A stretch of 64,000 nt of DNA, from NCBI GenBank assembly GCA_030527825.1, contig JAUNAC010000001.1, positions 744,001-808,000 on the forward strand, in the 5' to 3' direction. Both the position numbers and the translations under genes were made by a program. How positions within the stretch are numbered: position 1 is the stretch's first letter; the number at the start of each line of letters is the position of its first letter. The notes beneath the pieces are model-generated. The model worked only from the letters and a program-made list of their open reading frames with translations, was not told the DNA's origin and did no database searches. Below, piece after piece: positions 2,281-63,932 of this stretch. Source of the stretch: Lautropia sp. (lineage in GTDB: Bacteria > Pseudomonadota > Gammaproteobacteria > Burkholderiales > Burkholderiaceae_E).

Positions 2281-2353
2281 TAGACACGTACACATCTTCT
2301 CGCAGACATAGGGGCGCGTTTGCCGCGCGCTCCTCGCTCTTTAAGGAATCACC

Positions 2354-2665
2354 ATGGCAAACCAGAAGATCCGTATCCGCTTGAAAGCGTTCGACTACAA
2401 GCTGATTGACCAGTCCGCCGCTGAGATCGTTGATACGGCCAAGCGTACCGGCGCAGTTGTTCACGGCCCGGTGCCGTTGCCAACCCGCATCGAGCGTTTC
2501 GATGTGCTGCGCTCGCCGCACGTCAACAAAACCTCGCGTGACCAGCTGGAAATCCGTACGCACCTGCGTCTGATGGATATCGTGGATCCGACCGACAAGA
2601 CGGTCGATGCCTTGATGAAGCTCGACCTGCCCGCCGGTGTCGACGTGGAAATCAAGCTGCAGTAA
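2354..2665 (+). CDS. rpsJ: 30S ribosomal protein S10
   Basis: Small-subunit protein of the 30S head, also the transcription antitermination factor NusE. The 103 residues are full length ([20 protein letters not shown] at the start, [29 protein letters not shown] region at the end). AAGGA lies just upstream of the ATG. It would normally be followed at once by rplC, but here a factor-independent terminator comes 12 bases after the stop and rplC lies 15 kb downstream. Confidence 0.98.
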
Positions 2666-2677
2666 TCATGATGGATC

Positions 2678-2712
2678 GGGCAGCCCAGGTTCGCCTGGTG
2701 CTGCCCATTTTT
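2678..2712 (+). terminator. Rho-independent terminator after rpsJ
   Basis: GGGCAGC-CCAGG, a TTCG tetraloop, then CCTGG-(T)-GCTGCCC forms a 12-bp stem with one bulged base, followed by ATTTTT. It closes the fusA-tuf-rpsJ transcription unit and cuts it off from the accessory genes downstream. Confidence 0.85.
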
Positions 2713-2903
2713 AGAAGTTTCCCCTCCTTTTTTCTCTTGCCTTGCTGTGCTCGGCCCATGTGCGGCTTGCCATGTGGCTGACCGGGCGAGAGAGTCCCCA
2801 AGGATCCGGCCCGAATCACCGGTAGCTGGATCAGATGGGTGTTGACGGCATAGGACGTGCCCTGCCCACGGTACAAATGCCTGTTGACGCCCCCGATGCG
2901 CTG

Positions 2904-2936
2904 AAGCACTGGATTGCAGGCAGCATCGCAGTGCTT
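2904..2936 (-). repeat. Inverted repeat downstream of the receptor remnant
   Basis: AAGCACTG and CAGTGCTT form a perfect 8-bp inverted repeat with a 17-base loop, about 20 bases beyond the stop of the minus-strand receptor fragment. It may be the old 3' end of that transcript, but there is no T-run. The rest of 2713-2955 shows no recognisable gene. Confidence 0.4.
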
Positions 2937-2955
2937 CCCGATCTCATCACCGCAC

Positions 2956-3080
2956 TCAAAAATCGAACGAAGCCGACAGCTCGAAGGTCCGCGGCGCGCC
3001 GAGCGCCAGGCTGGACACCAGCGGCATGCCCCAGTATGCCTTGTTGGTGAGGTTGGTCACACTGGCAGTTGCTGCCGTTC
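2956..3080 (-). pseudogene. TonB-dependent receptor, C-terminal remnant
   Basis: On the minus strand the last codons read ...TASVTNLTNKAYWGMPL, then VSSLALGAPRTFELSASFDF and a stop. This is the classic end of a TonB-dependent siderophore receptor: the NLTNKAYW strand and the final aromatic beta-strand ending in F. Only about 40 residues of an expected 700 or so remain. The homology breaks off near 3070-3085, exactly where the plus-strand ABC fragment begins. It cannot encode a working receptor. Outer-membrane siderophore uptake is the family role; the substrate cannot be told. Confidence 0.75.
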
Positions 3081-4337
3081 CCGGGCTTTTTTCTTTTCTT
3101 CGGGCGCGCTGCCAGGGCCAGCAAGACGAATATGGACGGTTTTGTGACGGGCCTGACGCGCATCAACCATGCGGCGATCGAATTTGTGCAGGGCATCCCT
3201 GTCGTCAAGGCGTTTGGTGCCAGCGGCCGTGCGCATGCCGGTTATCGGCAGGCAGTCGATGCCTTTGCCAATGCCTTTGCGGATTTCACGCGGCCGCTGG
3301 TGGGTTCCATGGCCAATGCGAATGCGCTGGCGGCACCGGTGACGGTGCTTGGAGTGGCGCTGGCGGCAGGCGGCGTGTTTGTGGCGCTGGGATGGGCGGC
3401 ACCGGTGGATGTGTTGCCCTTTGTGCTGGTGGCGCCGGGTATCTCTGCGCCGCTTCTGCTGTTGCATTATCTGATCCATGACCTGAACAATGCCACCGGG
3501 GCGGCGCAGCGTGTGCTGGCGCTGCTGGATATGCCGGTGCTGACACAGCCGGCCCCAGGCCAACAAAAGGTACCGGCAGACAGCGAGGTGCGGTTCGAGG
3601 GGGTCAGTTATGCCTATGGTGCGCAGAATCCTCACGTGCTGGCGGACATCAGCTTTGTCCTGCGTCCAGGCACCGTGACCGCCGTGGTGGGTGCGTCCGG
3701 CGCGGGAAAGTCGACACTGGCCCGGTTGTTGCTGCGGTTTTTTGATCCGTCTGCCGGTCGCATCACCCTGGGTGGGGTCGATCTGCGGCAGATCGAGGCC
3801 ACGCAGCTGTATCGGCGCATCGGTTTTGTGCTGCAGGAGGTGCGTCTGGTCCACGCCAGCCTGCGCGAGAACATCGCGATGGGGCGACCGTCGGCCAGCC
3901 AGCAGGAGATTGAGGACGCGGCGCGTGTCGCCCAGATCCATGAGCGCATTCTGGCGCTGCCGCGCGGCTATGACTCGGTGGTGGGTGAGGACGCGCAGCT
4001 GTCGGGCGGCGAGCAGCAGCGTGTGAGCATTGCGCGGGCCGTGCTGCTTGATCCTGCCGTGCTGGTGCTGGACGAGGCCACTTCGGCGGCGGACGCCGAG
4101 AACGAGGTGCTCATCCAGGAGGCGCTGTCGCGTTTTGCGCAGAACCGCACGGTGCTGGTCATTGCGCATCGGCTCGACAGCGTGATGCATGCCGATCATA
4201 TCCTCGTGCTGGAGGATGGCGCCATTTGCGAACAGGGCAGCCATGCCGATCTGCTGGCGCTGGGGGGGCGCTATGCCCGCCTGTGGGCGCTGGGTCACTA
4301 CGGGGACAGGGCAGAACAGGAGGGCTCCACATGCTGA
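3069..4337 (+). pseudogene. Siderophore-type ABC transporter (permease-ATPase fusion), 5'-truncated
   Basis: Exporter-fold half transporter of the YbtP/IrtA type, which imports ferric siderophores. The frame opens at a TTG (3069) inside the membrane domain (FLFFGRAARASKTNMDGF...EFVQGIPVVKAFG); about 150-200 N-terminal residues with the first transmembrane helices are missing. The ATPase domain is whole: GASGAGKST Walker A, LSGGEQQR signature, VLVLDEATSAAD Walker B and VIAHRL H-loop. It overlaps the next ABC gene by 7 bases. The lost 5' end abuts the truncated receptor, so one deletion probably removed both starts and their shared promoter. It is likely non-functional. Confidence 0.75.
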
Positions 4338-6091
4338 AGATGCTGGCACAACTCCTGGGAGATGATGCGCCTGTTCTTTACCGCTACGTCCGGATGGCCG
4401 TGGCCTATGGCGTGCTCGGTGGGCTGACGATCCTGCTGCTGGTGCCAGCCCTGAGTGCACTGCTGGCGGGCGATGTCGGCCGCTCGGTCGTCTGGCTGGT
4501 GGTGCTGATCGTGGCCATGCTTGTTTGCTGGCTGTGGCGACGCCAGGTCGAGCGGGCGGGGGTGCGCGTGGGCGTAGGGGTGTTGCAGGGCGGGCGGCAG
4601 TGCACCGGTGACCACGTGGCCACGCTGCCGGTCGGCTGGTTCACGCCCGAGAACACGGCGTGGCTGGAGCATGTGGTGACGCAGGGCATGATGCAGGTGG
4701 CGCAGCTGCCGGCCCATGTCTTTACGCCAGTGATCAATGGCATCGTGATGCCGGTCGTGCTGCTGGCGCTGGACTCGCGCATGGGGTTGATGGCGCTATT
4801 GGCCCTGCCCGTGCTGGGCGGCATGATGTGGTGGACGGCGCGGCTCGGCGAGCGTGCCGATCAGGTCTTCAATCACCAGTTCGCGCAGGCCAGCCAGCGC
4901 ATGGTCGAGTTCGCGCAGGCGCAGTCCGTTCTCCGCGCCTTTCAGGGCCATGGTGGCAGCACGCGCCTGCTGGAGGAGGCGGTGGCGCTGAAGCAGGATT
5001 CAACGCGGCGGCTGATCCACCAATCCACGCTGTCATCGGTGCTCAACGCCTGGACCGTTCAGGCCGTGTTTGCGGTCTTGCTGGTGGCCGGCGTCTGGCA
5101 GTTGCAGGGGGGGCCGGCCGGTGGTGTGGACATGGCGCAGGCCATTGCCGTGACCGTGGCGCTGGTGCTGACATGCCGCTTCATTGATCCGCTGCAGGAG
5201 CTGGCCGGCTATGGCGACATCCTGCGTGGCGCGCGTGGACAGCTCAAGGCAGCCCAGGCGATTCTGGCGGTTCAGCCTCTGCCCGAGCCGGCCTACCCGC
5301 AGGCGCCGCAGGATGCGTCGGTGGAATTGCAGGCGGTGCGGTTCCGTTATGCGCCCGACCAGCCTGATATCCTGCACGATGTGAGCCTGCGGGTAGCGCC
5401 CGGCAGCATGGTGGCCCTGGTGGGCGCCTCGGGGTCGGGCAAGACCACGCTGATGCGGCTGCTGGCGCGCTTTTTCGATGTTCAGGCGGGCAGCGTGCGG
5501 GTGGGCGGGGTGGATGTGCGCGAGATGTCCAGCGCGCAGCTCGCGAGCCAGATCGGCCAGATCTTTCAGGAGAGCTACCTGTTTCAGGGAACCATTGCCG
5601 ACAGCATCCGCGTGGGCAAGCCTGATGCGAGCGATGCCGAGGTGCGGCAGGCCGTGCAGGATGCGGGCGTTGCGGACATCATCGCACGCTTGCCGCAAGG
5701 GCTGGACACGTTGGTGGGAGAAGGGGGCGCGCGGCTGTCGGGTGGCGAGCGCCAGCGCATTGCGATTGCGCGCGCCTTGATCAAGGATGCGCCGATCCTG
5801 CTGGTCGATGAGGCCACGGCGGCCCTGGATACGGAAAATCAGGCGGCGATTGCCGCCACGCTGGCGCGACTGCGCGGCAGGCGCACCTTGATCGTCATCG
5901 CCCATCAGCTGTCCACCGTGGCGATGGCGGACCACATCGTGGTGCTGGCCAATGGCCGGGTGGCTGAACAGGGTACGCCGGCGCAACTGCAGGAGCAGGG
6001 TGGCCTGTATGCCCGCTTTCTGGCGCAGCGGCAGGCAGCCAGGGGGTGGCGGATTGCGTCGCCTGGTCGCGGGGGCCATCGTGCCGCCTGA
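4331..6091 (+). CDS. Siderophore-type ABC transporter permease-ATPase, second subunit
   Basis: Partner half transporter (586 residues) of the YbtQ/IrtB type: an N-terminal membrane domain with about six helices, then an ATPase domain with GASGSGKTT, LSGGERQRIAIARAL, ILLVDEATAALD and the IVIAHQ H-loop. It starts at 4331, overlapping the end of the truncated partner, as in heterodimeric ferric-siderophore importers. The frame is intact, but the partner and the upstream promoter are gone, so a working heterodimer is unlikely. The last 15 residues (GWRIASPGRGGHRAA) look like read-through sequence. Confidence 0.8.
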   Translation: MLKMLAQLLGDDAPVLYRYVRMAVAYGVLGGLTILLLVPALSALLAGDVGRSVVWLVVLIVAMLVCWLWRRQVERAGVRVGVGVLQGGRQCTGDHVATLPVGWFTPENTAWLEHVVTQGMMQVAQLPAHVFTPVINGIVMPVVLLALDSRMGLMALLALPVLGGMMWWTARLGERADQVFNHQFAQASQRMVEFAQAQSVLRAFQGHGGSTRLLEEAVALKQDSTRRLIHQSTLSSVLNAWTVQAVFAVLLVAGVWQLQGGPAGGVDMAQAIAVTVALVLTCRFIDPLQELAGYGDILRGARGQLKAAQAILAVQPLPEPAYPQAPQDASVELQAVRFRYAPDQPDILHDVSLRVAPGSMVALVGASGSGKTTLMRLLARFFDVQAGSVRVGGVDVREMSSAQLASQIGQIFQESYLFQGTIADSIRVGKPDASDAEVRQAVQDAGVADIIARLPQGLDTLVGEGGARLSGGERQRIAIARALIKDAPILLVDEATAALDTENQAAIAATLARLRGRRTLIVIAHQLSTVAMADHIVVLANGRVAEQGTPAQLQEQGGLYARFLAQRQAARGWRIASPGRGGHRAA

Positions 6092-6417
6092 TCTGGCGCG
6101 TGTCCAGGCGCTTGCTGCTCCGTGTTCGGGGCGCTGGGCGTAAAGCCGCCAGCCCGGCGGTCGGAGTTGACCTGCACAGCATACCCGCTATCGGGGCGGG
6201 TGTAGGGCCCCGCATGCCCGTGAGGGGTGGATGTGCTCGAAGGTCAGGGCGGTTGCGTGCTGCAGGTGTGATGCGGTTTCATCATCTCCATTAACATAGG
6301 CGCGATGGATTGATGCGCTTTGTCGCATCTGTGTTGCGATGGATGCCATGGATTGGCCTATGCGCATGCCCCGGTTCAATCCATTCATGCATCCATTTTC
6401 TGCATTCATCATTCATT
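6092..6417 (+). other. Intergenic region upstream of xanP
   Basis: No gene is supported in these 326 bases. The last 120 bases are rich in the near-repeated words GATGGATTG/GATGGATGCC and CATTCAT/CATCCAT (6304-6417), leading straight into the xanP start. No clear sigma70 promoter or riboswitch fold was recognised. The frame of xanP stays open back to 6310 but that extension has no permease similarity. Confidence 0.5.
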
Positions 6418-7800
6418 ATGAACCCTGACTCCCGGAACCTGGCGCATGCCGATCTGATCTATGGTCTGGAAGACCGGCCGCCAGTCGGCAAGGCCCTGCT
6501 CAGTGCCATCACCCACCTGCTGGCGATCTTCGTCCCGATGATCACGCCCGCCCTGATTGTCGGGCGTGCCCTGGAGCTTCCGGTGGAGATGACCTCCTAT
6601 CTCGTCTCGATGGCGATGGTCGCCTCCGGGGTGGGCACCTGGCTGCAGATCAGCCGCTTCGGCCCCGTGGGATCGGGCATGCTGTCCATCCAGTCGGTGA
6701 ACTTTTCGTTCGTCACGGTCATGATTGCGCTCGGAACCGGCATGAAGGCCGGGGGGCTGGACGCGCAGGCGATGATCTCGTCCCTGCTGGGTGTCTCGTT
6801 CGTCGGGGCCTTTCTGGTGTGCGGTTCGGCCTGGCTGCTGCCGCTGCTCAAGCGTTTCATCACGCCCACGGTCAGTGGCGTGGTCGTCATGCTGATCGGG
6901 TTGAGTCTCGTCCATGTCGGCATCACGGATTTCGGGGGTGGCTTCGGCGCCAAGGCCGATGGCAGCTTCGGGTCGATCGAGAATCTGGGGCTGGCCAGTG
7001 CGGTCCTGCTGATCGTGCTGCTGTTCAACTGCATGCGCACTCCGCTGATGCGGATGTGCGGTGTCGCGGTGGGGCTGCTGGTGGGCTACCTGCTGGCGCT
7101 CTACTGGGGCAAGGTGGATTTTTCTGCGCTCAGGGGCCTGCCGCTGGTGACGGTGCCGGTTCCCTTCAAGTATGGCTTTGCCTTCGACAGCCATGCCTTC
7201 ATCGTGGCGGGCGCCATCTACCTGCTGAGTGTGTTCGAGGCGGTGGGGGATCTGACGGCGACCGCCATGGTGTCCGGCCAGCCGATCGAGGGGGATGACT
7301 ACCTGCGCCGCCTGCGTGGGGGGGTGCTGGCCGATGGCCTGGTGTCGGTCATCGCCACGGCGCTGGGCTCGCTGCCGCTGACGACGTTTGCGCAGAACAA
7401 TGGCGTCATCCAGATGACAGGTGTCGCCGCTCGCCACGTCGGCCGCTACATTGCAGCCATTCTCGTGGTGCTCGGTCTCTTTCCGATGGTTGGTCGTGCA
7501 TTCACGACGATCCCGGCGCCGGTGCTGGGGGGCGCGATGGTGCTCATGTTCGGCCTGATCACGGTTGCCGGGGTGCGAATCCTGATGAGTAACGGCATCC
7601 GTCGTCGTGAGGCGGTGATCGCGGCTACGTCCGTGGGGCTGGGTCTGGGGGTCGCCTTCGAGCCGGACGTCTTTCGGCAGCTGCCGGTGCTTTTCCAGAA
7701 CTCCATCTCGGCCGGGGGCATCACGGCCGTGTTGCTGAATCTGCTGCTGCCACACGACCATACCGAGAAGACGGTCTATCTCAGTGGTGAGCTCGACTGA
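6418..7800 (+). CDS. xanP: NCS2-family xanthine permease (XanP-like)
   Basis: Proton-coupled purine-base symporter of the inner membrane. The 461 residues match the length of XanP (about 463) and carry its hallmarks: LIYGLEDRPP at the N-terminus, the SGVVVMLIGLSL helix, FEAVGDLTATAMVSGQPI in TM8, and QNNGVIQMTG before TM10. Acidic and glutamine residues at the TM8 and NNGVIQ positions bind the purine in the family. The start at 6418 is chosen because similarity begins there, although the frame is open upstream. Xanthine or urate is the likely substrate; the exact specificity is inferred. Confidence 0.88.
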   Translation: MNPDSRNLAHADLIYGLEDRPPVGKALLSAITHLLAIFVPMITPALIVGRALELPVEMTSYLVSMAMVASGVGTWLQISRFGPVGSGMLSIQSVNFSFVTVMIALGTGMKAGGLDAQAMISSLLGVSFVGAFLVCGSAWLLPLLKRFITPTVSGVVVMLIGLSLVHVGITDFGGGFGAKADGSFGSIENLGLASAVLLIVLLFNCMRTPLMRMCGVAVGLLVGYLLALYWGKVDFSALRGLPLVTVPVPFKYGFAFDSHAFIVAGAIYLLSVFEAVGDLTATAMVSGQPIEGDDYLRRLRGGVLADGLVSVIATALGSLPLTTFAQNNGVIQMTGVAARHVGRYIAAILVVLGLFPMVGRAFTTIPAPVLGGAMVLMFGLITVAGVRILMSNGIRRREAVIAATSVGLGLGVAFEPDVFRQLPVLFQNSISAGGITAVLLNLLLPHDHTEKTVYLSGELD

Positions 7801-7940
7801 AGTGGCGTTCTCTGTCCTGGCACAGTCGGGGCGCCGCTGGTGCGAGGGCGCTGCAGCCCCGTGCGCCTGTCACGTATCGGGCATGGAGCGCAGCCGGTCT
7901 GTCCGCTTTCTTTTGCCTGCGCGTGCAGGCCGGTGACGAT

Positions 7941-9416
7941 ATGAACATGATTTCCCCGCAGCGGCACGAATACCTCGACGATGATCCGGCATTTCCGAGC
8001 ACGCTGGTTGTTGCGACTCTGTTTGTCGGTGCATTTTTTGGCTACCTCAACGAGACCCTGCTGAATGTGGCCTTGCCCACCCTGATGCAGGAATTTTCGG
8101 TGGACCGAACCACGGTACAGTGGATAGCAACCGGTTTCCTGCTGGTAATGGGGGCCCTGACGCCGCTGACGGCCAGTCTCGTTCAGTGGATGGCGACCCG
8201 GCGCCTGGTGCTGTTGACGCTCGGCACCTTCCTGCTGGGCTCACTGGTGTGCGCTGCCGCGCCCGGTTTCGGGATTCTGCTGGCGGGCCGCCTGGTGCAG
8301 GGGGCCTCGGCAGCACTGATGGTGCCGCTGCTGATGAATGCGGTGCTGGTGATCTATCCACCCGAGCGACGGGGCAGGATCATGGGTATGGTGGGTATGA
8401 TCTTCAGTATGGCGCCCGCGCTAGGGCCTACGCTGTCGGGCATTATCCTCGACCATGTCGGCTGGCGCTGGCTGTTCCTGCTGACCGTGCCTCTGGTACT
8501 CGTGGCCATGCTCCTGGTGGCGCGCTTCCTGAAAGTGCCTCTGGTTCCGGTGACCCGGCCTCGCATCGACATGTTCTCTGTCATGCTGTCGGTTTTTGGC
8601 TTCGGCGGGCTGGTTTATGCCAGCAGCCGTTTTTCCGAGGAGTCCGGGAGCACGCTGGCCGTGCTGCTGCCGGTTTCGCTGCTGATGGTGCTGGCGTTTG
8701 TGCTGCGCCAGTTCCGCCTCAAGGTGCCACTGCTCAACCTGCGCGCCTTCGGACATGCCCAGTTTGCCTATGCCGTTCTGATCCTGGCGGGCAACCTTTT
8801 CCTGTTACTGGGGATGGAGCTGCTGATGCCGATGTATGCTCAGCAGGTGTTGCTGCTCTCGGCGACCGTGACCGGCATCGTTCTGCTGCCGGGAAGCATC
8901 GCACAGGCGATGCTGATGCCGCTGTTCGGCTCGCTGCTCGATCGCCGGGGCGGGCGTTTCGTCGTGCTGCCGGGTACGCTGATGGCAGCAGCCTGCCTGC
9001 TGGCCATGCGGCTGACCTTCAATGGCACGGCACCGGCGTGGTGGCTGGCGACGTTGTTCGGGCTGTTTTTGGCGGGCGGGGCGGCTATCATGGTCGCGGA
9101 AACCGGTGGCCTGAATGCGCTGCCCCGTTCGCTGAACCCGCATGGCGCGGCCATCGTGGCGACCTTGAACCCGATCGCCGGTGCGCTGGGGGCCGCCTTC
9201 TTCGTGGGGATTATCCGTATGGGAGAGCAGCTTTCGGCTACTAAGCCTAACAACGCGGTCGAGCCTATGGGGTATGCTGTTGATGCTGGTGTGGCAGCGC
9301 TGTCGGAAGCGGCGCGCCAGAGGATGCTGGCTGGGGTGCATCTGGCACTCGGGATAGCCCCGCTCGTCGCATTGCTGATGGCCTGGGCGGCGAGCCGCCT
9401 GATTCGCAGTCGCTGA
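7941..9416 (+). CDS. MFS transporter, DHA2 (14-helix) drug:proton antiporter family
   Basis: Inner-membrane efflux pump of the EmrB/QacA-like family. 491 residues if started at the ATG at 7941; an in-frame GTG lies 18 bases earlier. Family motifs: NETLLNVALPTLMQEF with TTVQWIATGFLL in the first helices, and GPTLSGIILDHVGWRWLFLL (motif C followed by the WRW loop). Many hydrophobic segments agree with 14 helices. It lies between xanP and the tannase-like gene on the same strand, but spacing (140 bases before it) does not prove one operon. The substrate is unknown. Confidence 0.8.
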   Translation: MNMISPQRHEYLDDDPAFPSTLVVATLFVGAFFGYLNETLLNVALPTLMQEFSVDRTTVQWIATGFLLVMGALTPLTASLVQWMATRRLVLLTLGTFLLGSLVCAAAPGFGILLAGRLVQGASAALMVPLLMNAVLVIYPPERRGRIMGMVGMIFSMAPALGPTLSGIILDHVGWRWLFLLTVPLVLVAMLLVARFLKVPLVPVTRPRIDMFSVMLSVFGFGGLVYASSRFSEESGSTLAVLLPVSLLMVLAFVLRQFRLKVPLLNLRAFGHAQFAYAVLILAGNLFLLLGMELLMPMYAQQVLLLSATVTGIVLLPGSIAQAMLMPLFGSLLDRRGGRFVVLPGTLMAAACLLAMRLTFNGTAPAWWLATLFGLFLAGGAAIMVAETGGLNALPRSLNPHGAAIVATLNPIAGALGAAFFVGIIRMGEQLSATKPNNAVEPMGYAVDAGVAALSEAARQRMLAGVHLALGIAPLVALLMAWAASRLIRSR

Positions 9417-9462
9417 GCCAGGCAACGGAGGCAAGCGTGACATGGCCCTGACTGGAGAACTC

Positions 9463-11190
9463 ATGAGCTTGACATTCGATTCCACGGCGCGTCGGCCCCC
9501 GCGCCGCTGCGTGACACCATCTCGGCTTGCTTTCCGGTCGTTCGTGTATCCGGTGGGTCGGCTAACCTGGATGGTGGGCCTGCTGGCGGGTAGCGGCGCC
9601 CTGGCGGTTGCTCAGGCGCAGGCCGTTGCACCGGATCACCATCAGGCGCGCGTTCAGACAGATACCATGGATCCACTCGATTTCTCGCATCTCGTCCCGA
9701 TTGCCGCCAGCACCCAGGTCGAGGGCCGAACTATCGCCTTCCGTGCCTACGAGGATGTCGTCTATGTGCGCCATCCGCTCGATGCCACCTACCAGCGCAT
9801 GAACATCTATGTGCCGGAAGCCTACTTCCACGGCCGTCAGGTCAATGGCTATTCGGCGGACACGGCGCCGATTTTCTTTCCCAATCCGGTGGGGGGCTAC
9901 ATGCCCGCCAGGCCCGGGGTGCCTGGCAAGGGCGGATTCGGGCCCCCGCCAGCCGGTGGCAGCAGGGCTGATGCCATGCAGATGGCGCTGGCGCATGGCA
10001 TGGTGGTGGCCTCGCCCGGCGCTCGGGGCCGGACCCAGGCCACGGGCAAGGCGCCGGCCGCCATCGTCGATCTGAAGGCTGCAGTCCGTTACCTGAAGTA
10101 TAACGACCGGGTGATGCCGGGCGATGCCCGGCGCATCATCTCCAATGGCACCAGTGCGGGTGGCGCATTGTCCGTGCTGCTCGGCGCCAGTGCCAACCAG
10201 CCAGACTACGCGCCCTACCTGCGGGCACTCGGAGCGGCCGATGCGCCGGACGACATCTATGCCGTCTCGGCCTATTGCCCGATCTCCATTCTCGGGCAGG
10301 CCGATGCCGCCTATGAATGGGAGTTCAATGGCGTCGATGCCTATGAAAAGCTCGACATCAGCCAGGTCGATTTTCACGTCCAGCGAAAGCTGGTCAAGGG
10401 AGTGCTCACTTCCGCTGAAAAGGCCGTATCCGCTGATCTGAAGCCACAATTTGCCTCGTATGTGAATTCCCTGGGGCTGCGTGGGCCAGACGGTCTCATG
10501 CTGTCGCTGGATGCCAGGGGCAATGGCAGCTTCAAGGCACATGTCGCCTCGTATCTGGCGGCTTCGGCGCAGCAGCAGCTCGACGCTGGCAAGGATCTGG
10601 CAGGGCGCGACTGGCTGACCATCCACAATGGCAAGGTGGTCGCCGTCGACTTCGACCGCTTCGCCCGTGCGATTGGCCGCCAGAAGGTCCCGCCAGCCTT
10701 CGACGGCCTGTCGCTGGAGAACGCCGAGAACGAGGAGTTCGGCAACGGCGAGAAAGAACGTCGGCATTTCACTGAATACTCCTCCCGCCACAGTGCGGTG
10801 CAGGGGGCAGGCACGGCCGATGAGGAGGTCATCCGGATGATGGATCCGATGAGCTACATCGCCCGGGGGCAGGCGGGCCCGCAACACTGGCGCATCCGTG
10901 TCGGCACGGCCGACCGGGATACCTCCCATGCCATCGCGGTGATCCTGGCGACGCGTCTGCAGAACAGTGGCCGACAGGTGGACATGGCTATGCCCTGGGA
11001 TGTGCCCCACAGCGGAGATTATGACCTTGATGCGCTGTTTGGCTGGATCGAGGCGGCGGTGGCAGCTGATGGGGCCGCAGCCGGGGCGGCCAGCGCGATG
11101 CCAGCCCCGGAGGCAACCGTGCCGCCGACGGCAAGGCAACAGATGACATCAGCACCAGAAGGTCAGGCAAGCAGGCGCCGGCAGGATTGA
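9463..11190 (+). CDS. Secreted alpha/beta hydrolase, subtype B tannase-like
   Basis: Probable carboxylesterase of the bacterial tannase (subtype B) group, which cleaves galloyl esters of plant tannins. 575 residues from the ATG at 9463, which has GGAG at good spacing; an upstream ATG (9442) is a worse fit. Residues 1-55 look like an export signal (Arg-rich start, hydrophobic 37-52, AQAQA). The nucleophile elbow is NGTSAGG with Ser231; candidate His lies in VPHSGDYDLDALFGW near the C-terminus. A low-complexity Ala/Pro tail follows. Family call is moderate; substrate is inferred only. Confidence 0.7.
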   Translation: MSLTFDSTARRPPRRCVTPSRLAFRSFVYPVGRLTWMVGLLAGSGALAVAQAQAVAPDHHQARVQTDTMDPLDFSHLVPIAASTQVEGRTIAFRAYEDVVYVRHPLDATYQRMNIYVPEAYFHGRQVNGYSADTAPIFFPNPVGGYMPARPGVPGKGGFGPPPAGGSRADAMQMALAHGMVVASPGARGRTQATGKAPAAIVDLKAAVRYLKYNDRVMPGDARRIISNGTSAGGALSVLLGASANQPDYAPYLRALGAADAPDDIYAVSAYCPISILGQADAAYEWEFNGVDAYEKLDISQVDFHVQRKLVKGVLTSAEKAVSADLKPQFASYVNSLGLRGPDGLMLSLDARGNGSFKAHVASYLAASAQQQLDAGKDLAGRDWLTIHNGKVVAVDFDRFARAIGRQKVPPAFDGLSLENAENEEFGNGEKERRHFTEYSSRHSAVQGAGTADEEVIRMMDPMSYIARGQAGPQHWRIRVGTADRDTSHAIAVILATRLQNSGRQVDMAMPWDVPHSGDYDLDALFGWIEAAVAADGAAAGAASAMPAPEATVPPTARQQMTSAPEGQASRRRQD

Positions 11191-11223
11191 TCTGGCCAGG
11201 GATGTCCCCATCTGGTTGGGACC

Positions 11224-12321
11224 ATGCTCTATATCCTTCCCGTCCTCCTTTGTTGTTTCTGCCTCTGGCGCTTCCTGAGGTTTGGCCCAGTCTTCGGCGG
11301 CCAGCCGGATGCCCGCAGTCAGGCCCGCATCCAGGCATCTCCCCAGTTCGACGGAACGGCCTTTCAGAATGCCGAGCCCACACCGATGATGGTGCCGGGG
11401 GTCACGAAGCCAGTCAGTGTGCTTGGCTGGTTGCGGCAGGTGGTTTCTCCACCACCGGGCAAGGTTCCGAAGGAGCCTTTGCCCAATCATGCGCTGAACC
11501 TGCACGCGTCGCCCCTGCAGGACGGCCAGTTCGTCTGGCTGGGACACTCGTCCGTGCTCTTCCGGCTGGCCGGGCAGGTGATGATCACTGATCCGGTGCT
11601 GTACCGTGCTTCACCGATTTTCGTGGCCGGGGCTCCGTTCCGGCTGCAGCATGCCATCACGGCGGCTGACCTGCCGGCCATCGATGCCGTACTGCTCTCG
11701 CATGACCATTATGATCACCTGGACTGGCGAGCCATCCGCAAACTGGATGCCCGGGTAGGGCACTACTTCGTGCCGTTGGGCGTGCGCGCCCACCTGCTGC
11801 GGTGGGGCGTGGCCGACGAGAAGATTACTGAGCTGGACTGGCACGAGTCTGCCAGCCTGGGTGAGGTGAGGTTGACCTTGGCGCAGGCCCGGCATTTCAG
11901 TGGGCGCCGGTTCAGCAATCGCAATTCGACGCTCTGGGGATCCTGGGTGGTGAAGGGCCCGGACTTCTCGCTGTTCTTTAATGGTGACAGTGGCTATGGC
12001 CAGCATTTTGCCGATATCGGCAGACGCTATGGGCCCTTTGATGTCGCGCTGATGGAGAACGGTGCTTACGATGAGCGCTGGGCCTATATCCACATGCTGC
12101 CGGAACAGTCGGTGCAGGCGGTGCAGGATGTGGCAGCCCGCCGGGCCGTGCCCATTCATTGGGGCAAATTCGATCTGGCCTTTCATCCCTGGCAGGAATC
12201 CATCCGCCGCTTTCTGGCCGAAGCCGACAGGAAGGGGGTGGACACTGTCACCCCGGCGATCGGGGAGGTCTTCGACTTTGCCGATCCTCCGCGTTCGCGC
12301 TGGTGGGAGTCGGTGACGTAG
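11224..12321 (+). CDS. MBL-fold metallohydrolase (NAPE-PLD/RomA-like)
   Basis: Metallo-beta-lactamase-fold hydrolase with N-terminal membrane anchor or signal (residues 1-20, LYILPVLLCCFCLWRF). The zinc motif LSHDHYDHLD (H160, H162, D164, H165) is intact, followed by the expected downstream ligands in QARHFSGR, FNGDSGYG and PIHWGKFDLAFHPW. Length 365 fits the group that includes RomA outer-membrane-associated proteins and N-acyl-phosphatidylethanolamine phospholipase D. It starts 33 bases after the tannase-like gene, suggesting co-transcription. The actual substrate cannot be read from sequence. Confidence 0.78.
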   Translation: MLYILPVLLCCFCLWRFLRFGPVFGGQPDARSQARIQASPQFDGTAFQNAEPTPMMVPGVTKPVSVLGWLRQVVSPPPGKVPKEPLPNHALNLHASPLQDGQFVWLGHSSVLFRLAGQVMITDPVLYRASPIFVAGAPFRLQHAITAADLPAIDAVLLSHDHYDHLDWRAIRKLDARVGHYFVPLGVRAHLLRWGVADEKITELDWHESASLGEVRLTLAQARHFSGRRFSNRNSTLWGSWVVKGPDFSLFFNGDSGYGQHFADIGRRYGPFDVALMENGAYDERWAYIHMLPEQSVQAVQDVAARRAVPIHWGKFDLAFHPWQESIRRFLAEADRKGVDTVTPAIGEVFDFADPPRSRWWESVT

Positions 12322-12338
12322 TCAGAAGGGTGCTGTCT

Positions 12339-12366
12339 GAAAAAAGAATCGCCCCTTGGAAGGGGC
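12339..12366 (-). terminator. Terminator of the sucrose operon
   Basis: On the minus strand GCCCCTTCCAAGGGGC, a self-complementary stem, is followed by GATTCTTTTTTC. It lies about 120 bases past the stop of the minus-strand MFS gene and between convergent genes. A second inverted repeat, CGCGAAAGG/CCTTTCGCG (12440-12473), sits between it and the gene. Confidence 0.55.
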
Positions 12367-12486
12367 TGTCTGGCCTGGCAGTGACGGGAAAGCGGTGCAA
12401 GGACCGGTGCCTCCCTTGTCTGCCGGGTATGGGGCGCGCCGCGAAAGGCCGTTCTCCCGAATAACCTTTCGCGACAGCGGCCGTGC

Positions 12487-13845
12487 TCAGGTATTAGTGT
12501 CCCGGCGCATCGGGAAGTTGGTGGCTCCGGTAGAGTGAGGTGTAGAGACGCCAAGCGTTGCGAGGCAGGCTGCCAGCAGCAGCAGACCGGCACAGGTCAT
12601 TGCTGCCCCCGGGCTGCTGTTCAGCAAGTGTTTGTAGATCCATCCGAAGGTCAGCGTCTGGATCAGCATCGGGATCACGATCATCATATTGATGATCCCC
12701 ATGTAGACGCCATAGCGCTCTTTCGGAATCTCGGCCACGGCGATCAGGTAAGGAACCCCCATGATGCTGGCCCAGGCGATACCGAAGCCGATCATTGGCA
12801 CGAACAGCAGGAACTTGTTGGTCACGTGCGGGAAGATGCACAGCGCCAGCGCGGCCAGTGCCAGGGCAAAGGCGTGCACGAGCTTGGCCTGGTACTTGCG
12901 GGCCAGATACATCAGCCCGAAAGCCGACAGGAAGGTGACAACGTTATAAAAGCCGTTAACGAGGCCCGTCCAGGCGACTGCCTGCTCATACACCTGAGCT
13001 GCCAGTTTCTCATCAGGAATGCTGCTGACCCCGAAGGCCGATTCGGCGATGCTGTGGGAAACATACTGCCAGTAGATGAACATGGCATACCACTGGAACA
13101 GATAGACCAGGGCAAGTTGCCAGAGGGTTTTGGGCATCAGCCGGATGGCCTCGGCAATGTCCTTCACGGCCACACCGAGCCCGTGCGGCTTGGCGCGCAG
13201 CTCGGCAAGCGCCTCGGGGCTGGGGGCGTTTTCCGGTGTGCTGAACACGGAAATCAGCACCGTGACGATCGAGCAGAAGGAGCCGACGTAGAAGGAGCCG
13301 AACACCCAGTAGGGGATGCCGGACTCGGTCACGCCGGTGATATGCCGTTCGAAGAAATACAACGACACATTGGCCAGCGTGATACCCAGCCCGGTGAAGA
13401 AGCTCTGCATCAGAAAGCCGGTCGCGTGCTGTTCTTCCGGAAGCTTGTCCGCGATGAAGGCGCGATACGGTTCCATGGCCGTGTTGTTGCTGGCATCCAG
13501 CAGCCATAGCAGCAGCACCGCCATCCACAGGGCTGTCGAGTGGGGATACAGGAACAGACAGAGGCTGCAGCCGATGGCGCCGACCAGGAAGTAGGGCCGA
13601 CGCCGGCCCAGGCCGGGAACCCAGGTGCGGTCACTCATGGCACCGATGAGTGGCTGGATCAGCAGTCCGGTCACCGGGCCGGCCAGGTTCAGGATCGGCA
13701 GCTGTTCAGGGTTTGCATGCAGGAAGCTGAACACGGGGTTGATGGCAGTCTGCTGCAGGCCGAAGCTGTACTGGATGCCGAAAAACCCGAAGTTCATCAA
13801 GAGTATCTGGCGAAACGTCATCGCCACGCGGGCATCTATTTTCAT
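12487..13845 (-). CDS. MFS sugar transporter, SLC45/GPH-like (probable sucrose or maltose uptake)
   Basis: Twelve-helix inner-membrane symporter, 452 residues. The N-terminal half has QYSFGLQQTAINPVFSFL, GPVTGLLIQPLIGAMSDRTWVPGLGRRRPYFLVGA (the SDR...GRRRP loop typical of SLC45-type carriers) and LLDASNNTAMEPYRAFIADKLPEEQ. It is the last gene of a minus-strand set with an outer-membrane porin and amylosucrase, which makes sucrose (or another alpha-glucoside) the best guess. The neighbours drive the substrate inference; the family assignment comes from the sequence. Confidence 0.8.
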   Translation of the reverse strand: MKIDARVAMTFRQILLMNFGFFGIQYSFGLQQTAINPVFSFLHANPEQLPILNLAGPVTGLLIQPLIGAMSDRTWVPGLGRRRPYFLVGAIGCSLCLFLYPHSTALWMAVLLLWLLDASNNTAMEPYRAFIADKLPEEQHATGFLMQSFFTGLGITLANVSLYFFERHITGVTESGIPYWVFGSFYVGSFCSIVTVLISVFSTPENAPSPEALAELRAKPHGLGVAVKDIAEAIRLMPKTLWQLALVYLFQWYAMFIYWQYVSHSIAESAFGVSSIPDEKLAAQVYEQAVAWTGLVNGFYNVVTFLSAFGLMYLARKYQAKLVHAFALALAALALCIFPHVTNKFLLFVPMIGFGIAWASIMGVPYLIAVAEIPKERYGVYMGIINMMIVIPMLIQTLTFGWIYKHLLNSSPGAAMTCAGLLLLAACLATLGVSTPHSTGATNFPMRRDTNT

Positions 13846-13982
13846 GGGAGCAGGATTCCTCTATATATTGGGGCGCCAGACTGGGGTGGCCGTACACATC
13901 GTGCGTTATCGGGTTCACAGATAAACCCGGTGCCCAGACCGGGGAGATCCGTGATGCCGGATGAGCCGGCCGCACCTCCGAT

Positions 13983-14077
13983 GAATACAGATGATCCGTA
14001 TTCGTCGGGGGGAAGCTCTGACCGATTTGCCCTGTACCGGTCAGGCGCTTCCAGAAAGCCAGCACCCCGAGGGGTGC
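13983..14077 (-). repeat. Three hairpins between the porin and MFS genes
   Basis: The 244-base spacer holds GAATAC/GTATTC (13983-14003), CTGACCG/CGGTCAG (14018-14044) and GCACCCC-GA-GGGGTGC (14062-14077). None has a good T-run on the minus strand, so they may slow decay or attenuate rather than terminate. Confidence 0.45.
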
Positions 14078-14089
14078 CGGGTAAAAAAA

Positions 14090-15523
14090 TCAGAACCAGG
14101 CTTCGACCTGGGCACCATAGGTCACGGCACTGCGTTTGTTGGCAAATGACGTGACAGCCGTGGCGCAGTCGCGGCCCGTGCAGGCAACCGGACCGGCCTT
14201 GGCAGCTGCGTCATTCCACTTGGCATAGGTCGCGAACAGACGGATAGCGGGTCGCGCCGTGACGCCGGCACCCATGGCAAACTGCGTGCCGATGGTTGCC
14301 TTGGACAGGGTTCGTGTCGCCTCGCTACCTTGACGGACACGCTGGTGACTCAGTTCGCTGAACAGGCCGAGCACTTCACTGATGCTGTAGAAGGGCCGGG
14401 TGCCGAGCCAGGTCTCGCGGACCTTCACATCATTGACTTCCGCATGCCGGTAGCCAGCAGTCGAGGTGGCGGACCATTGACTGTGCGCCGGCTGGAACAG
14501 CCAGTGGTCAAACAGCATCCATTCGCGCCGCTTGTCCGTGCTGCCACCCACACCATAGCCCTTGAGCAGTGCGGCATCATGGGCATACTGCAGGCCGAGG
14601 GTGTTGGTGCCGCCAAAACCCAGCGGATCACGCTGTTCGTGGGTCAGGGTGAAGGCGGTGCCGTTGTTGCCTGCCGCGTTGTCAAGTGTGCGGGTCTGCC
14701 GGACCACGACATCCACATTCGGCGTGGCCGGGTTGTTGTCCAGATCGACCGATTGCGTGGTGTCTACTGTATAGGTACCCGTGCCGCTGCGGTTGCTGGC
14801 ACGGACGATATCTACCCCGGCTGTCAGCAGCCCGCCCCGGTTCACCGGAAGGGCTTCCAGGCGAAAATCGTGCACTGTCGCGGAACGCGAACCGCCACCA
14901 ATCAGATCGGGGTTGTAACCACCGAGTCCGTTGTTGACCCCGTAGCCGGTGAAATCACCCATGCGGAACATGGCATAGGCAAATTTGCCTGGGCCCAGCG
15001 TGACATTGTCCAGACCGACACCTGGCCCCTGACCCGGTTCCCAATAGGTGTAATCCAGCATGTGGATATCCGGGTTTTTGTAGAAGCGTTTGCCAGCCCA
15101 GAGAATGGCGCCATCCAGAGCGCGGACATCCAGCGAGGCGCCGATGTTCGATGCAGTGACAAACAGCTCACGCAACGCTGGGGTACTCTGCTCCCAGTTG
15201 GCCATGCCCTGGGTTCCATGCGAGAGTGTAATTTTGGCATCGAACTGCGTGCCCTTGACTTCGCCGAGGTGCGATCCCAGTTTCAGATCGACATAGGAAT
15301 CACATTCGTTGCCCAGACGAAAGAAAGTCGCAGCGCCCGGGAGCCGAAAGCACGCCTGTGAGCCGCCATCCGTAGTGGTGCCCAGACCACTGCGCAGGTA
15401 GGCACCAAAAGTGAATGTGGGAGTCGCTGCCTGCGTCCCGTCTGCCAGGACTGGTGTGCTGAGGCATGACACGGCCAGCGCGACGCTGGTGCCGGCAGTG
15501 GCCATGATTTTCTTCTTATTCAA
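14090..15523 (-). CDS. LamB/ScrY-type maltoporin or sucrose porin
   Basis: Outer-membrane sugar channel, 477 residues. N-terminal signal peptide (MNKKKIMATAGTSVALAVSCLSTPVLA). The mature start FTFGAYLRSGLG followed by CFRLPGAATFFRLGNECDSYVDLKLG matches the LamB family, with a cysteine pair across the first loop as in LamB. WAGKRFYKNPDIHMLDYTYWEPGQGPGVGLDNV is the conserved mid-region; the protein ends in QVEAWF, with the terminal aromatic needed for outer-membrane assembly. It lies between amylosucrase and the MFS gene, so it probably lets sucrose or glucans through. Confidence 0.87.
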   Translation of the reverse strand: MNKKKIMATAGTSVALAVSCLSTPVLADGTQAATPTFTFGAYLRSGLGTTTDGGSQACFRLPGAATFFRLGNECDSYVDLKLGSHLGEVKGTQFDAKITLSHGTQGMANWEQSTPALRELFVTASNIGASLDVRALDGAILWAGKRFYKNPDIHMLDYTYWEPGQGPGVGLDNVTLGPGKFAYAMFRMGDFTGYGVNNGLGGYNPDLIGGGSRSATVHDFRLEALPVNRGGLLTAGVDIVRASNRSGTGTYTVDTTQSVDLDNNPATPNVDVVVRQTRTLDNAAGNNGTAFTLTHEQRDPLGFGGTNTLGLQYAHDAALLKGYGVGGSTDKRREWMLFDHWLFQPAHSQWSATSTAGYRHAEVNDVKVRETWLGTRPFYSISEVLGLFSELSHQRVRQGSEATRTLSKATIGTQFAMGAGVTARPAIRLFATYAKWNDAAAKAGPVACTGRDCATAVTSFANKRSAVTYGAQVEAWF

Positions 15524-15595
15524 GGGGGCTCCTGTCTACGTCTAGAAAAAGATGGGAAGGAACTGCAACTTGTGATGAACTTCACGGCGCTGGAA

Positions 15596-15664
15596 CCTGG
15601 CCAGGCGGATCTGGCCAGGTGTCAACGTCTGGTGACCCACAGCCTCTAAATGAGGAAGCTGTGG
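15596..15664 (-). repeat. Two strong hairpins between amylosucrase and the porin
   Basis: CCTGGCCAG-6-CTGGCCAGG (15596-15619) and CCACAG-CCTC-TAAAT-GAGG-AAG-CTGTGG (15637-15664) lie back to back in the 150-base spacer. The second starts 9 bases past the amylosucrase stop. Neither has a minus-strand T-run, so transcription probably continues into the porin gene. Confidence 0.6.
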
Positions 15665-15673
15665 GGCGCCTCA

Positions 15674-17611
15674 TCAGGTCGCGGAATGTGCCTCTGATAC
15701 CAAAGGTGAAATTTCCAGCCAGAGAACTCCATAGGGGGCCAGGGTTGCTCCGCGCCGCAGGTCATACGCCCGGTCGGTCAGCAGATCGCGGACCGGCCGC
15801 GCGGGCATGGCCTGAAAGACCTGGGCGGGGCAATGCTGCTCATACTCGCTGTAATTGGCCAGCACCAGCACCGTTTGCTGCTCATGGGCGCGCGTGTAGC
15901 CCAGCACAGCCGGATGGCCTGCCCGGAAGCCGGTCAGTTCGCCGCCGGCAAAGGCCGGCGTGTTGCTACGAATGATGATCATGCTACGCAGGCCGGTGAA
16001 AATCTGTCCGGGCACAGTATGGGGGTTATTACGCTGCTCATAGCGGTTTTCGTCCCGATAGGGGCGATGAATCCAGCGGCTGTCATCAGCCTCGTCAGGG
16101 ACTTCGAGATAGTGGCGGTCATTCAACGTGCCAACCTCGTCACCCAGGTAAATCAACGGCAGACCGCCGGTGCTGAGCGCGACGCTGAACAGCAACAGCA
16201 TGCGCTGCACGCCCAGCGGGTCACCCTGCTCAAGCCCGACAAGGGAAGCAAAGGTACCACTCACCCGGGCATCGCCCGTATCAGGGTTTTCCTGAAACGG
16301 CACCCCTCGAGCAAAGCTGCCGGGAAACTGGTTGTTGTAGAACCGGTTCAGGAAACGGCGGTGGTCATAACCATTGATGCCGAACTGGGCGGCGTCTTCA
16401 TCGGCAAATGTCCAGCCGATATCGTCATGGCTGCGGACATAATTCACCCATGCGGTGTCAGGAGGCAGCTGATGCCATTTTTCCAATGCCTGCTGTAACA
16501 GATTGACCTCCCGGGTAGCCAGCGAATTCCATTGCAATGCCATTTGCAGCGGGTTGTATGAGAGCTGGCATTCGTTGGGTGAGATGTAGGACATGACCTC
16601 GGCTGGATGGACAATGGCCTCGGACTTGAAGAGTAGTGAAGGCGCTGCAATTCTGGCCAGGGCGTTGAAGGCGCGGATGATGTGATGGACTTCGGGCAGG
16701 CTCTCACAGGGGGTACCAAGGCGTTTCCAGACAAAGGCCACGGCATCCAGACGCAAAACTTCGGCGCCCAGGTTGGCGATGGCCAGCATCTCGCCTGCCA
16801 TGGCCCTGAATACATCCGGGTTGCTGTAATTCAGATCCCATTGAAAGGAATGAAACGTTGTCCAGACCCAGCGGCCGTCAGGCAGTTGCGAGAAGGCGCC
16901 CCGGTGTTCGTCGGGAAAGATCTCGCGAACCGTGCGTTCGTAGAGATCCGGCTGCGTGCGGTCGGGGAAAATAAAGTAGAAATCGCGGTATTCGGGATCC
17001 CCTTCAAGAGCGGCCTGGGCCCAGGGGTGGTCATTTGCGGTGTGGTTGAAGATGAAGTCCAGCACCATGCTGATGCCTGCCTTGCGCAATGCCTTGGCCA
17101 GCTCCCGCAGGTCGTCAATCGTACCGATATCGGGATTGACCTGGCGGTAATCGCTGACCGCATAACCACCATCGCTATTGCCCGGGGGAACCTTGAAGGG
17201 AGGCATCAAATGCAGGTACGACAGCCCGAGTTCCTTAAAATAGGGAATTTGCTTGATTAAGTTCTGGATATTGCCGGCAAAGCGGTCGACATACAGCACG
17301 CCGCCGACCACCTTTTCGGATTCGAACCAGGTCGGGTTTTTTTCGCGCGCCTCATCAAGCGCTTTCATCTCTTTTGGACGCTCAGACCAGCCTGTCCAGG
17401 CAGTCTGGATCAGTGCGTCGAGCTGTGCCAAAAAATCGGGGCGATGCCCGTAGAGGGGTTGCAGGTTGTCCAGCAGCGCTGGCAGATGCATTTTCAGTCG
17501 ATGTTCGAACTGCTGCCATTGGTTGCCGGTGGCCTTGCGGCCCAAACGGTGCGCAAGTGCGTTGCGTACATGTTCGAAAGCCAGGTTCTGTTGTTGTTCC
17601 AGTGTCAGCAT
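15674..17611 (-). CDS. Amylosucrase (GH13 subfamily 4)
   Basis: Transglucosidase that builds an alpha-1,4-glucan from sucrose and releases fructose. From the ATG at 17611 the protein has 645 residues (Neisseria polysaccharea enzyme: 636). The catalytic set is complete: Asp289 in VLRLDAVAF, Glu331 in FKSEAIVHP and His395-Asp396 in YVRSHDDIGW, each three residues beyond the known D286, E328 and D393, which supports this start. First gene of the minus-strand sucrose set. A TTGACA box lies upstream at 17684-17689 but with a poor -10. Confidence 0.93.
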   Translation of the reverse strand: MLTLEQQQNLAFEHVRNALAHRLGRKATGNQWQQFEHRLKMHLPALLDNLQPLYGHRPDFLAQLDALIQTAWTGWSERPKEMKALDEAREKNPTWFESEKVVGGVLYVDRFAGNIQNLIKQIPYFKELGLSYLHLMPPFKVPPGNSDGGYAVSDYRQVNPDIGTIDDLRELAKALRKAGISMVLDFIFNHTANDHPWAQAALEGDPEYRDFYFIFPDRTQPDLYERTVREIFPDEHRGAFSQLPDGRWVWTTFHSFQWDLNYSNPDVFRAMAGEMLAIANLGAEVLRLDAVAFVWKRLGTPCESLPEVHHIIRAFNALARIAAPSLLFKSEAIVHPAEVMSYISPNECQLSYNPLQMALQWNSLATREVNLLQQALEKWHQLPPDTAWVNYVRSHDDIGWTFADEDAAQFGINGYDHRRFLNRFYNNQFPGSFARGVPFQENPDTGDARVSGTFASLVGLEQGDPLGVQRMLLLFSVALSTGGLPLIYLGDEVGTLNDRHYLEVPDEADDSRWIHRPYRDENRYEQRNNPHTVPGQIFTGLRSMIIIRSNTPAFAGGELTGFRAGHPAVLGYTRAHEQQTVLVLANYSEYEQHCPAQVFQAMPARPVRDLLTDRAYDLRRGATLAPYGVLWLEISPLVSEAHSAT

Positions 17612-17851
17612 GGCCAAGCCCGTCCTGCAGGGGAGTTGCGGGGTACCCAAAATGGGCATGTATGACGCGGTCTGTAGCCGGAATGTCAATTCGCTCGACG
17701 AAAAATGTTCCAAGCAGGGGAACCGGAATCGCAAACGGAACGTTGCAATACGTCACATGACAAAATGTACTACTTAGCCATACGCTGCGGTGCATCAAAA
17801 CCAACGACGAGGCATGGAATGGGAAAAAATGCGTGCGTGCGGTGTACCAGC

Positions 17852-17880
17852 TTGCGTACTGGATTGAGGGTGTTTATAAT
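17852..17880 (+). promoter_or_regulatory. Strong sigma70-type promoter for rplC and the following ribosomal genes
   Basis: TTGCGT at 17852-17857, a 17-base spacer, then a perfect TATAAT at 17875-17880. Transcription would start near 17887, giving a leader of about 64 bases before rplC. The rest of 17612-17850 holds only the amylosucrase upstream region on the other strand; no gene is seen there. Confidence 0.8.
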
Positions 17881-17950
17881 CGCCAGCTTGGCAAGGCTTG
17901 CGGCCAATCGAAGCCGCAGGTATCAATAATCGCTTGAAGGGGGTCTCCGA

Positions 17951-62300: not shown

Positions 62301-62592
62301 CATGTACCTCGTCTTGTTGAATCCTGCGAAGATAATTCCACGGGCCGTTCAGTGGCGCCGCGGGTATCTTGATGCGGACAGCATAAGACGAAATAGAGTC
62401 CCTTATCTTTTGCGGTACGTTAGCCAGGGCAAAAGTGCATCATTTAGTGCTGTTCAGGAAATAATTGTTACACATTTATGTGTCTTGTGGTTCTGGTGCG
62501 TCAACGGGATCGACACCTGACGGTGATTTATCCACCAGCCGACAGGTGTACGGAAAGGCCCGTTCAGTACGCCATCAGCGGTGCGCGCTGTG

Positions 62593-63714: not shown

Positions 63715-63932
63715 GAATACTCTCCGTGCCGTGGTGATTGGCACCATGAGGTGCCCGCGTGCAATGAGAAAAGAATACGGATTGCCGGGTTGGACAGGTG
63801 CCGGGATGCCGATTCGGCGGTATCGCTGTGACGAATGGATGCCGGGTGTGGCGTCAGACGCGACGGGGAGGATGTCTTGCCATTGATTTTGATTGACGGT
63901 TTGGCCGTGGCCTCAAGTGCGTATGGCCTGAA

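Follow-up and report, generated by a model that had tools for sequence, protein, structure and literature searches.

The adjacency of rpsJ, encoding S10 (NusE), and rplC, encoding L3, is often taken as a frozen gene order. In Escherichia coli, the S10 leader allows a protein of the operon to limit the L3-L4-L23-L2... operon, acting on both transcription and translation (excerpts of PMC10931766). Baniulyte et al. (2017; PMC5725501) showed repression of suhB by boxA in E. coli, reported putative boxA sites ahead of rpsJ in three genera of their gamma-proteobacterial set and made the case for autoregulation by NusE. Leaders made of a single hairpin have also been described, for example five L31 motifs (Eckert and Weinberg 2020). 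Here, a stretch of 64,000 nucleotides from Lautropia sp. (contig JAUNAC010000001.1, positions 744,001 to 808,000; hereafter the window) was analyzed, in which rpsJ and rplC lie ~15.3 kb apart. The data make it probable that the rpsJ|rplC junction is a boundary between two transcription or control units throughout the order, rather than a point in mid-operon, and that inserts are tolerated there. The NCBI taxonomy places Lautropia in the Betaproteobacteria, Burkholderiales.

The window belongs to a 1.54 Mb contig of a 2.80 Mb genome assembled in six contigs. The run on the upstream side, fusA (partial)-tuf-rpsJ, stops at 2665; the downstream run, rplC-rplD-rplW-rplB-rpsS, begins with the ATG at 17951 (Table 1). 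These coordinates bear out the gap of ~15 kb proposed in an earlier reading made from the letters of the window (the sequence-only reading). The nine accessory genes or gene remnants of that reading are here read as nine genes on both strands, one of them 5'-truncated, and one additional remnant. The TTCG-loop terminator placed after rpsJ by the same reading is equally well founded, with a hairpin of -24.9 kcal/mol (z -3.64) that none of 200 shuffles equaled. Like the E. coli S10 operon leader, which mediates autogenous control by L4 in the excerpts cited above, the leader RNA predicted here would serve the L3-L4-L23-L2 operon. Different from the E. coli leader, it is a hairpin of ~20 nt located after rpsJ and before rplC; a long structured leader of the E. 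coli type was not found upstream of rpsJ, which follows tuf by 73 nt. In being a short hairpin before a ribosomal-protein gene, it resembles the single-hairpin leaders of Eckert and Weinberg (2020).

The hairpin lies between a promoter-like site and rplC and contains a 6-bp stem (9-bp in the window) capped by an 8-nt loop, CAAUYGNA. Of 73 relatives examined, 71 have it 5' of rplC; G042 and G050 lack it (G numbers denote genomes). In 47 distinct hairpin sequences, 98.2% of cells are paired; the covariation of 0.613 compares with 0.280 (sd 0.020) in shuffles, none of 500 being as high, and with 0.022–0.157 when slid. A covariance model recognized the hairpin as its sole site in the window at E values up to 5 (28.7 bits). 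Among the matches listed, the model finds a site within 150 nt upstream of rplC, on the same strand, in 130/150 genomes of the order with rplC listed, and in 106/126 after removal of the 24 model-building genomes. Inspection of the remaining 20 revealed 11 with an exact loop and five or more pairs, and G431 with a 7-of-8 loop, so that model and inspection together give ~142/150. Weaker matches also lie elsewhere in genomes of the order; the hairpin matches listed, 150 in number, include 20 without a paired listed rplC, three of which (G342, G371 and G418) proved to lie 5' of rplC. A phylum sample of 249 genomes searched at E 0.01 gave 13 matching genomes; 11 belong to the order, and in all of these the match is directly before rplC. 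A conserved, covarying RNA structure upstream of a ribosomal-protein gene is what a ribosomal-protein leader would present, and we regard the hairpin as a candidate new leader of this kind, with a predicted ligand and a predicted regulatory role.

Known families and literature do not contain this element within the range covered. Positions 1–32000 of the window gave no match to Rfam 15 at the gathering threshold, and a search of nine related loci at E up to 5 returned six weak matches, all of them away from the rplC leader. No described rplC leader of Betaproteobacteria was found in open-licence PMC papers, and one may exist in print; the accessible parts of PMC11109978 and PMC7186457 contain no rplC leader. 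In the portion of PMC7247131 at hand, the only mention of rplC concerns an archaeal (Archaeoglobi) L4 candidate, and the terms 'Betaproteobacteria' and 'Burkholderi' occur zero times in that portion of its main text.

The hairpin accompanies rplC in all 29 split genomes, 19 from the family and 10 from other families, and stays before rplC even with rpsJ 78.5 kb away or out of order; in G021, it is 110 nt from the rplC start codon. Its partner is therefore unlikely to need rpsJ in cis, and a protein encoded on the rplC side, such as L4 or L3, would be the natural candidate. The hairpin could also be a real RNA structure that senses no ribosomal protein and instead stabilizes the end of the mRNA or sets the spacing of the ribosome-binding site, as its short length, its position near the presumed 5' end (in Lautropia the -10 element begins 30–33 nt before the loop) and its lack of rRNA similarity would allow. 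This is rather unlikely in our judgment, given that the 8-nt loop is nearly constant in its letters throughout the order and the stem is free to vary, which suggests a specific binder.

Mimicry of an rRNA site was considered separately. The sequence at position 787 of E. coli 23S rRNA, GGCCAATCAAACCGG, resembles the leader loop; the match is not claimed as mimicry and was set aside, since by a rough hand estimate chance alone would produce several loop matches of this kind in an RNA of 2.9 kb. The window's own assembly yielded no 23S gene. To our knowledge, resemblance to an rRNA site is not required of all ribosomal-protein leaders.

The promoter-like site upstream of the hairpin has a perfect -10 element (TATAAT, 17875–17880) placed 17 nt from a weak -35 element (TTGCGT, 17852–17857) that matches in 3/6 positions. 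A -10 element of at least 5/6 occurs at the equivalent position in 8/8 Lautropia genomes, its first base also lying 24–27 nt before the 6-bp stem. A promoter-like -10 of at least 5/6 is found in 36/42 other genomes of the family, and a TATAAT-like site is already present in the rpsJ-rplC spacer of many unsplit relatives. At p 0.1 (60 shuffles each), the best promoter-like pair is retained in 6/8 Lautropia and 32/42 other family genomes. As judged from the sequences, the promoter evidence is good inside the family and weak outside it, and the restart signal at rplC looks older than the split. The two-unit layout probably preceded the split because unsplit relatives carry the rplC site and leader, with rpsJ 73 nt after tuf. 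Of the earlier statement that S10 'must now' be matched to the other proteins through two promoters, the two units remain and the 'now' is lost, the promoter-like site and leader of unsplit relatives apparently predating the split. Transcription from the rplC site is what we infer from this arrangement; the available main text of the start-site papers on Burkholderia cenocepacia and Neisseria gonorrhoeae does not name rplC.

On the rpsJ side, a boxA-like site precedes the start codon by 9 nt and agrees in nine of ten positions with TGCTCTTTAA, which we take to be the boxA consensus. A loose core, YGYTCTTT, lies within 45 nt of rpsJ in 61/74 loci, with 0.4 expected from shuffles, and within the family in 39/40. 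The position just 5' of the NusE (S10) gene is like that in boxA/Nus-factor autoregulation, described for suhB and predicted for rpsJ, and would fit a putative regulatory function. Compared with the gamma-proteobacteria treated in the accessible part of PMC5725501, the 61/74 loci here belong to the order of the window and are matches in sequence.

Several observations weigh against a control boundary, marked by a leader, throughout the order. Two-sided change occurs in all six hairpin pairs, yet 30/500 shuffles also reach six. The hairpin is weak and partial in G165 and G252, degenerate and partial in G352 and G368, and absent in all four inspected genomes of family f15 (G050, G356, G386 and G433). 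The phylum search at E 0.01 recovered only 11/20 genomes of the order, and its two matches outside the order are not before rplC. No convincing rRNA look-alike was found, the best model score in E. coli 23S and 16S having an E value of 1.4. From loop end to start codon, the spacing is 38–39 nt in Lautropia versus 18–21 nt in 40/42 other family genomes, and a simple occlusion model is thereby weakened, since in Lautropia it would act less directly. The rplC promoter is a match in sequence with a weak -35 and does not appear in a strict consensus scan; 'near-consensus', the term used in the sequence-only reading, is slightly generous for it. A promoter-like pair reaches p 0.1 in only 6/19 genomes of other families. 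The loose boxA core is missing in 13/74 loci, and only 28/74 (1.1 expected) match the presumed consensus in at least 8 of 10 positions. A terminator-like hairpin follows rpsJ in 8/8 Lautropia genomes, 6/11 other split genomes and 6/22 unsplit genomes of the family; termination at this point is therefore not general.

Nine Lautropia genomes were sampled, and rpsJ and rplC are split in all eight with both genes located, by 4.6–15.3 kb (G000, 15.3; G001, 11.7; G002, 10.0; G003, 6.6; G005, 4.65; G006, 15.0; G007, 10.5; G008, 8.5 kb). The ninth, G004, gave neither gene, and rpsJ of G006 is only partial, at a contig end. Lautropia forms one clade (100/100) in a 48-row ribosomal-protein tree. The sequence-only reading had allowed for an assembly error, an option that falls away: the split is found within a 1.54 Mb contig here and also in the one-contig relative G007, and therefore no join error is involved. 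Strain mixture is suggested in the G006 assembly, in which a second leader and amylosucrase copy stand at a contig end (G006:C50); with the split also present in G007, in the contig here and in six other Lautropia assemblies, an artefact or mixture of strains as its origin is hardly credible.

The inserted blocks share one end and differ at the other. A pair of amylosucrase and LamB porin genes adjoins rplC in 8/8 Lautropia genomes, accompanied in 6/8 by a major facilitator superfamily (MFS) gene resembling sucrose symporters. The rpsJ side varies, reading permease-DHA2-tannase in G007 and, in G001 (Lautropia dentalis), permease and tannase interrupted by an IS21-like element; the block of the window adds an ABC pair, the remnant and a metallo-beta-lactamase (MBL) fold gene to the rpsJ-side set. 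In G001, at ~8192–12362 of the locus examined, pieces of the tannase gene flank an IS21-like IstB gene. The sequence-only reading had offered insertion or an inversion breakpoint as the origin of the split. A breakpoint, at which a rearrangement parted the two halves and left old neighbors between them, is an improbable source here; the eight Lautropia genomes keep strand and order within 4.6–15.3 kb and retain the amylosucrase-porin pair beside rplC. Such events may have counterparts in other families. In family f27, the two genes are on opposite strands in G402 and out of order by ~153 kb in G446, and family f4 has gaps of 78.5 kb (G349), 27.7 kb (G428) and 5.3 kb (G449); rearrangement may therefore occur at the junction elsewhere. 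Insertion is the half of the proposal that holds, with both halves keeping strand and order, an insert that varies between species and 29/40 other family genomes unsplit. We read the 15 kb block as an insertion specific to this lineage, at what looks like a natural boundary between the two halves.

Outside Lautropia, 11/40 family genomes with both genes located are split and 29/40 unsplit. The splits comprise 8/9 genomes of genus g15 (1.1–6.3 kb), which is one clade (100/98) in the 48-row tree, together with G017 (1.1 kb), G080 (7.0 kb) and G021 (different contigs). The cargo at the junction differs. G017 carries ParD/ParE, G022 carries PhoX, G080 carries LysR, CoA-transferase and Rieske genes, and the 15 kb preceding rplC in G021 hold ABC and malate synthase G genes. 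The split label requires at least four changes on the tree, some deeper forks being open; gap sizes for the labels were entered by hand from located genes. Genomes in which a gene was not located were left uncounted, namely G004, G010, G011, G013, G025 (partial rplC), G027, G028, G035 and G045 among the first 61, and in the family sample also G072, G073, G078 and G083.

Single genomes from 23 other families have rpsJ-rplC gaps of at most ~255 bp. In a sample of 160 genomes of the order, which from its families we take to be broadly the Betaproteobacteria, both genes were located in 145; 133 of these have gaps within 300 bp, two at 301–600 bp, and ten are wider, displaced or on different contigs, two of the ten being Lautropia (all among the matches listed). 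G342 and G371, with gaps of ~16.7–16.8 kb, were added to the split genomes of this sample. The ten split genomes of other families are G320, G349, G428, G449, G188, G402, G446, G342, G371 and G399; the cargo of G320 includes an MscS-type channel and a LacI-type regulator. The word 'split' here takes in G188, where the two genes are only 0.76 kb apart, as well as G021 and G399, whose genes are on different contigs. Given 133/145 within 300 bp and the repeated splits, splitting is therefore a minority but recurrent state. The sequence-only reading had left room for the same split being common across the order, and it is indeed recurrent and genus-wide in Lautropia, without being the majority condition. 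The pattern fits repeated insertion at one place, not assembly error or a single inversion.

Whether the Lautropia block is one genomic island, brought in by site-specific integration of a mobile element at the rpsJ end and then decayed, was also weighed. The variable content and length of the blocks, the truncated gene and remnant near rpsJ and the IS21-like element in L. dentalis are all compatible with such an origin. We nevertheless think it doubtful to a high degree, in light of the following. The nine genes annotated in the window block include no integrase, phage or conjugation gene, no tRNA gene is found in the window, and no direct repeat pairs the block ends (2300–18000; among 20 of 25 repeat families listed); in the block of the window, to which this check refers, neither the integrase nor the attachment repeats of an integrative mobile element were thus found. 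Plasmid matches are confined to two, both partial and both to the ABC genes, and a plasmid origin was rejected on these two records. Moreover, other genera carry other cargo at the identical junction.

The window amylosucrase shows near full-length homology to the solved amylosucrase 1g5a (residues 29–634, phmmer), which presumably comes from Neisseria polysaccharea. The window gene differs from 1g5a in its setting, being grouped with genes for a LamB porin and a sucrose-type permease within a run of ribosomal genes. Among the matches listed, the nearest amylosucrases outside Lautropia are 67–68% identical and belong to Rhodoferax, Comamonadaceae and Burkholderiales metagenome-assembled genomes; none of five ribosomal or tuf queries matched beside these three, in the short DNA examined around them. 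Open-licence PMC papers contained no pairing of Lautropia with amylosucrase. A record titled Vibrio cholerae 35D contains an amylosucrase 58% like that of the window, placed among many actinobacterial relatives, and may be a mislabeled contig.

Table 1. Coordinates of features at the rpsJ-rplC junction of the window.
Feature	Position	Strand	Remarks
boxA-like site CGCTCTTTAA	2335..2344	+	9 nt before rpsJ start codon; 9/10 match to TGCTCTTTAA
rpsJ (S10/NusE)	2354..2665	+	last gene of fusA-tuf-rpsJ run; 99-100% identity in genus genomes where found
rpsJ terminator	2678..2712	+	stem 2678-2706, TTCG loop, T-run 2708-2712
Remnant	2956..3093	-	frame looks by eye like TonB-dependent receptor C-terminus
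ABC exporter half, N-terminally truncated	3069..4337	+	MsbA-related profile matched only from position 177
Second ABC exporter half	4331..6091	+	profile match
NCS2 xanthine/uracil-type permease	6418..7800	+	TIGR00801 4e-121, above cut-off; also in G001, G007
DHA2-type MFS exporter	7923..9416	+	TIGR00711 above cut-off; also in G007
Subtype B tannase	9463..11190	+	NF041556 above cut-off; in G007; in pieces in G001
MBL-fold hydrolase	11224..12321	+	PF12706
MFS transporter resembling sucrose/proton symporters	12487..13845	-	TIGR01301 70.9 bits, below cut-off 511; 6/8 Lautropia genomes
LamB-family sugar porin	14090..15523	-	PF02264 above cut-off; 8/8 Lautropia genomes
Amylosucrase	15674..17611	-	phmmer 3e-256 to 1g5a; 8/8 Lautropia genomes
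rplC promoter-like site TTGCGT-17-TATAAT	17852..17880	+	similar sites in unsplit relatives
rplC leader hairpin	17893..17924	+	stem 17896-17904/17913-17921, loop CAATCGAA 17905-17912
rplC (L3)	17951..18685	+	first gene of second unit; rplD etc. next

Within the block, the first ABC half lacks approximately the first 176 positions of its profile. The remnant at 2956–3093 has no Pfam match, and its naming as the end of a TonB-dependent receptor is tentative. The MBL-fold hydrolase has no match in the other seven Lautropia blocks. The product of rplC has an N-terminal extension (17951–18010) compared with L3 of most relatives. Elsewhere in the window, rpsC (21175–22029) encodes a long charged C-terminal tail, and rpoA (31132–32223) encodes a protein of 363 aa, presumably longer than is usual for RpoA, in which a stretch rich in glycine and serine precedes the last domain. 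An open reading frame (ORF) at 47339–48091, flanked by aroB-like and gltB-like genes, resembles on visual inspection a REP-associated (Y1-type) transposase, and two adjacent, similar-looking ORFs at 61146–62303 and 62593–63747 appear lipoprotein-like by eye.

A boundary at this junction suggests the following course of events. The rpsJ gene would close the tuf unit, with a boxA-like NusB/NusE site at its start, and the rest of the S10 operon would begin at rplC, under a separate promoter and with a short hairpin as its leader. DNA inserted upstream of that promoter would therefore break nothing. The Lautropia ancestor would have gained a sucrose module at the junction, in which amylosucrase and LamB porin are joined, in most genomes, by a sucrose-type permease, for a presumed benefit to the cell, and further genes would then have accumulated on the rpsJ side. 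The sucrose genes are transcribed away from rplC and therefore would not read into it. S10/NusE would limit its own synthesis through boxA, and L4 or L3, the most likely partners, would bind the hairpin, which lies ahead of the ribosome-binding site of rplC, and limit translation of the rplC unit by a predicted repression. The balance of S10 to the rest may thus be kept by each half carrying its own feedback site. That the Betaproteobacteria possess two feedback circuits in the S10 region, one of NusE/S10 and boxA before rpsJ and one of an L3/L4-type sensor hairpin before rplC, with the splits exposing the rplC-side partner, is a proposal that we consider evenly poised between true and false.

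The boundary itself and the hairpin are a more general result than the 15 kb block. If the leader acts as proposed, a ribosomal operon of very large size would be under its feedback control, and the natural splits would provide a ready-made genetic dissection of the partner of the hairpin. If the boundary is group-wide, the gene order is perhaps kept for reasons other than co-transcription of rpsJ and rplC, and the repeated natural insertions would then be a test of why it is kept.

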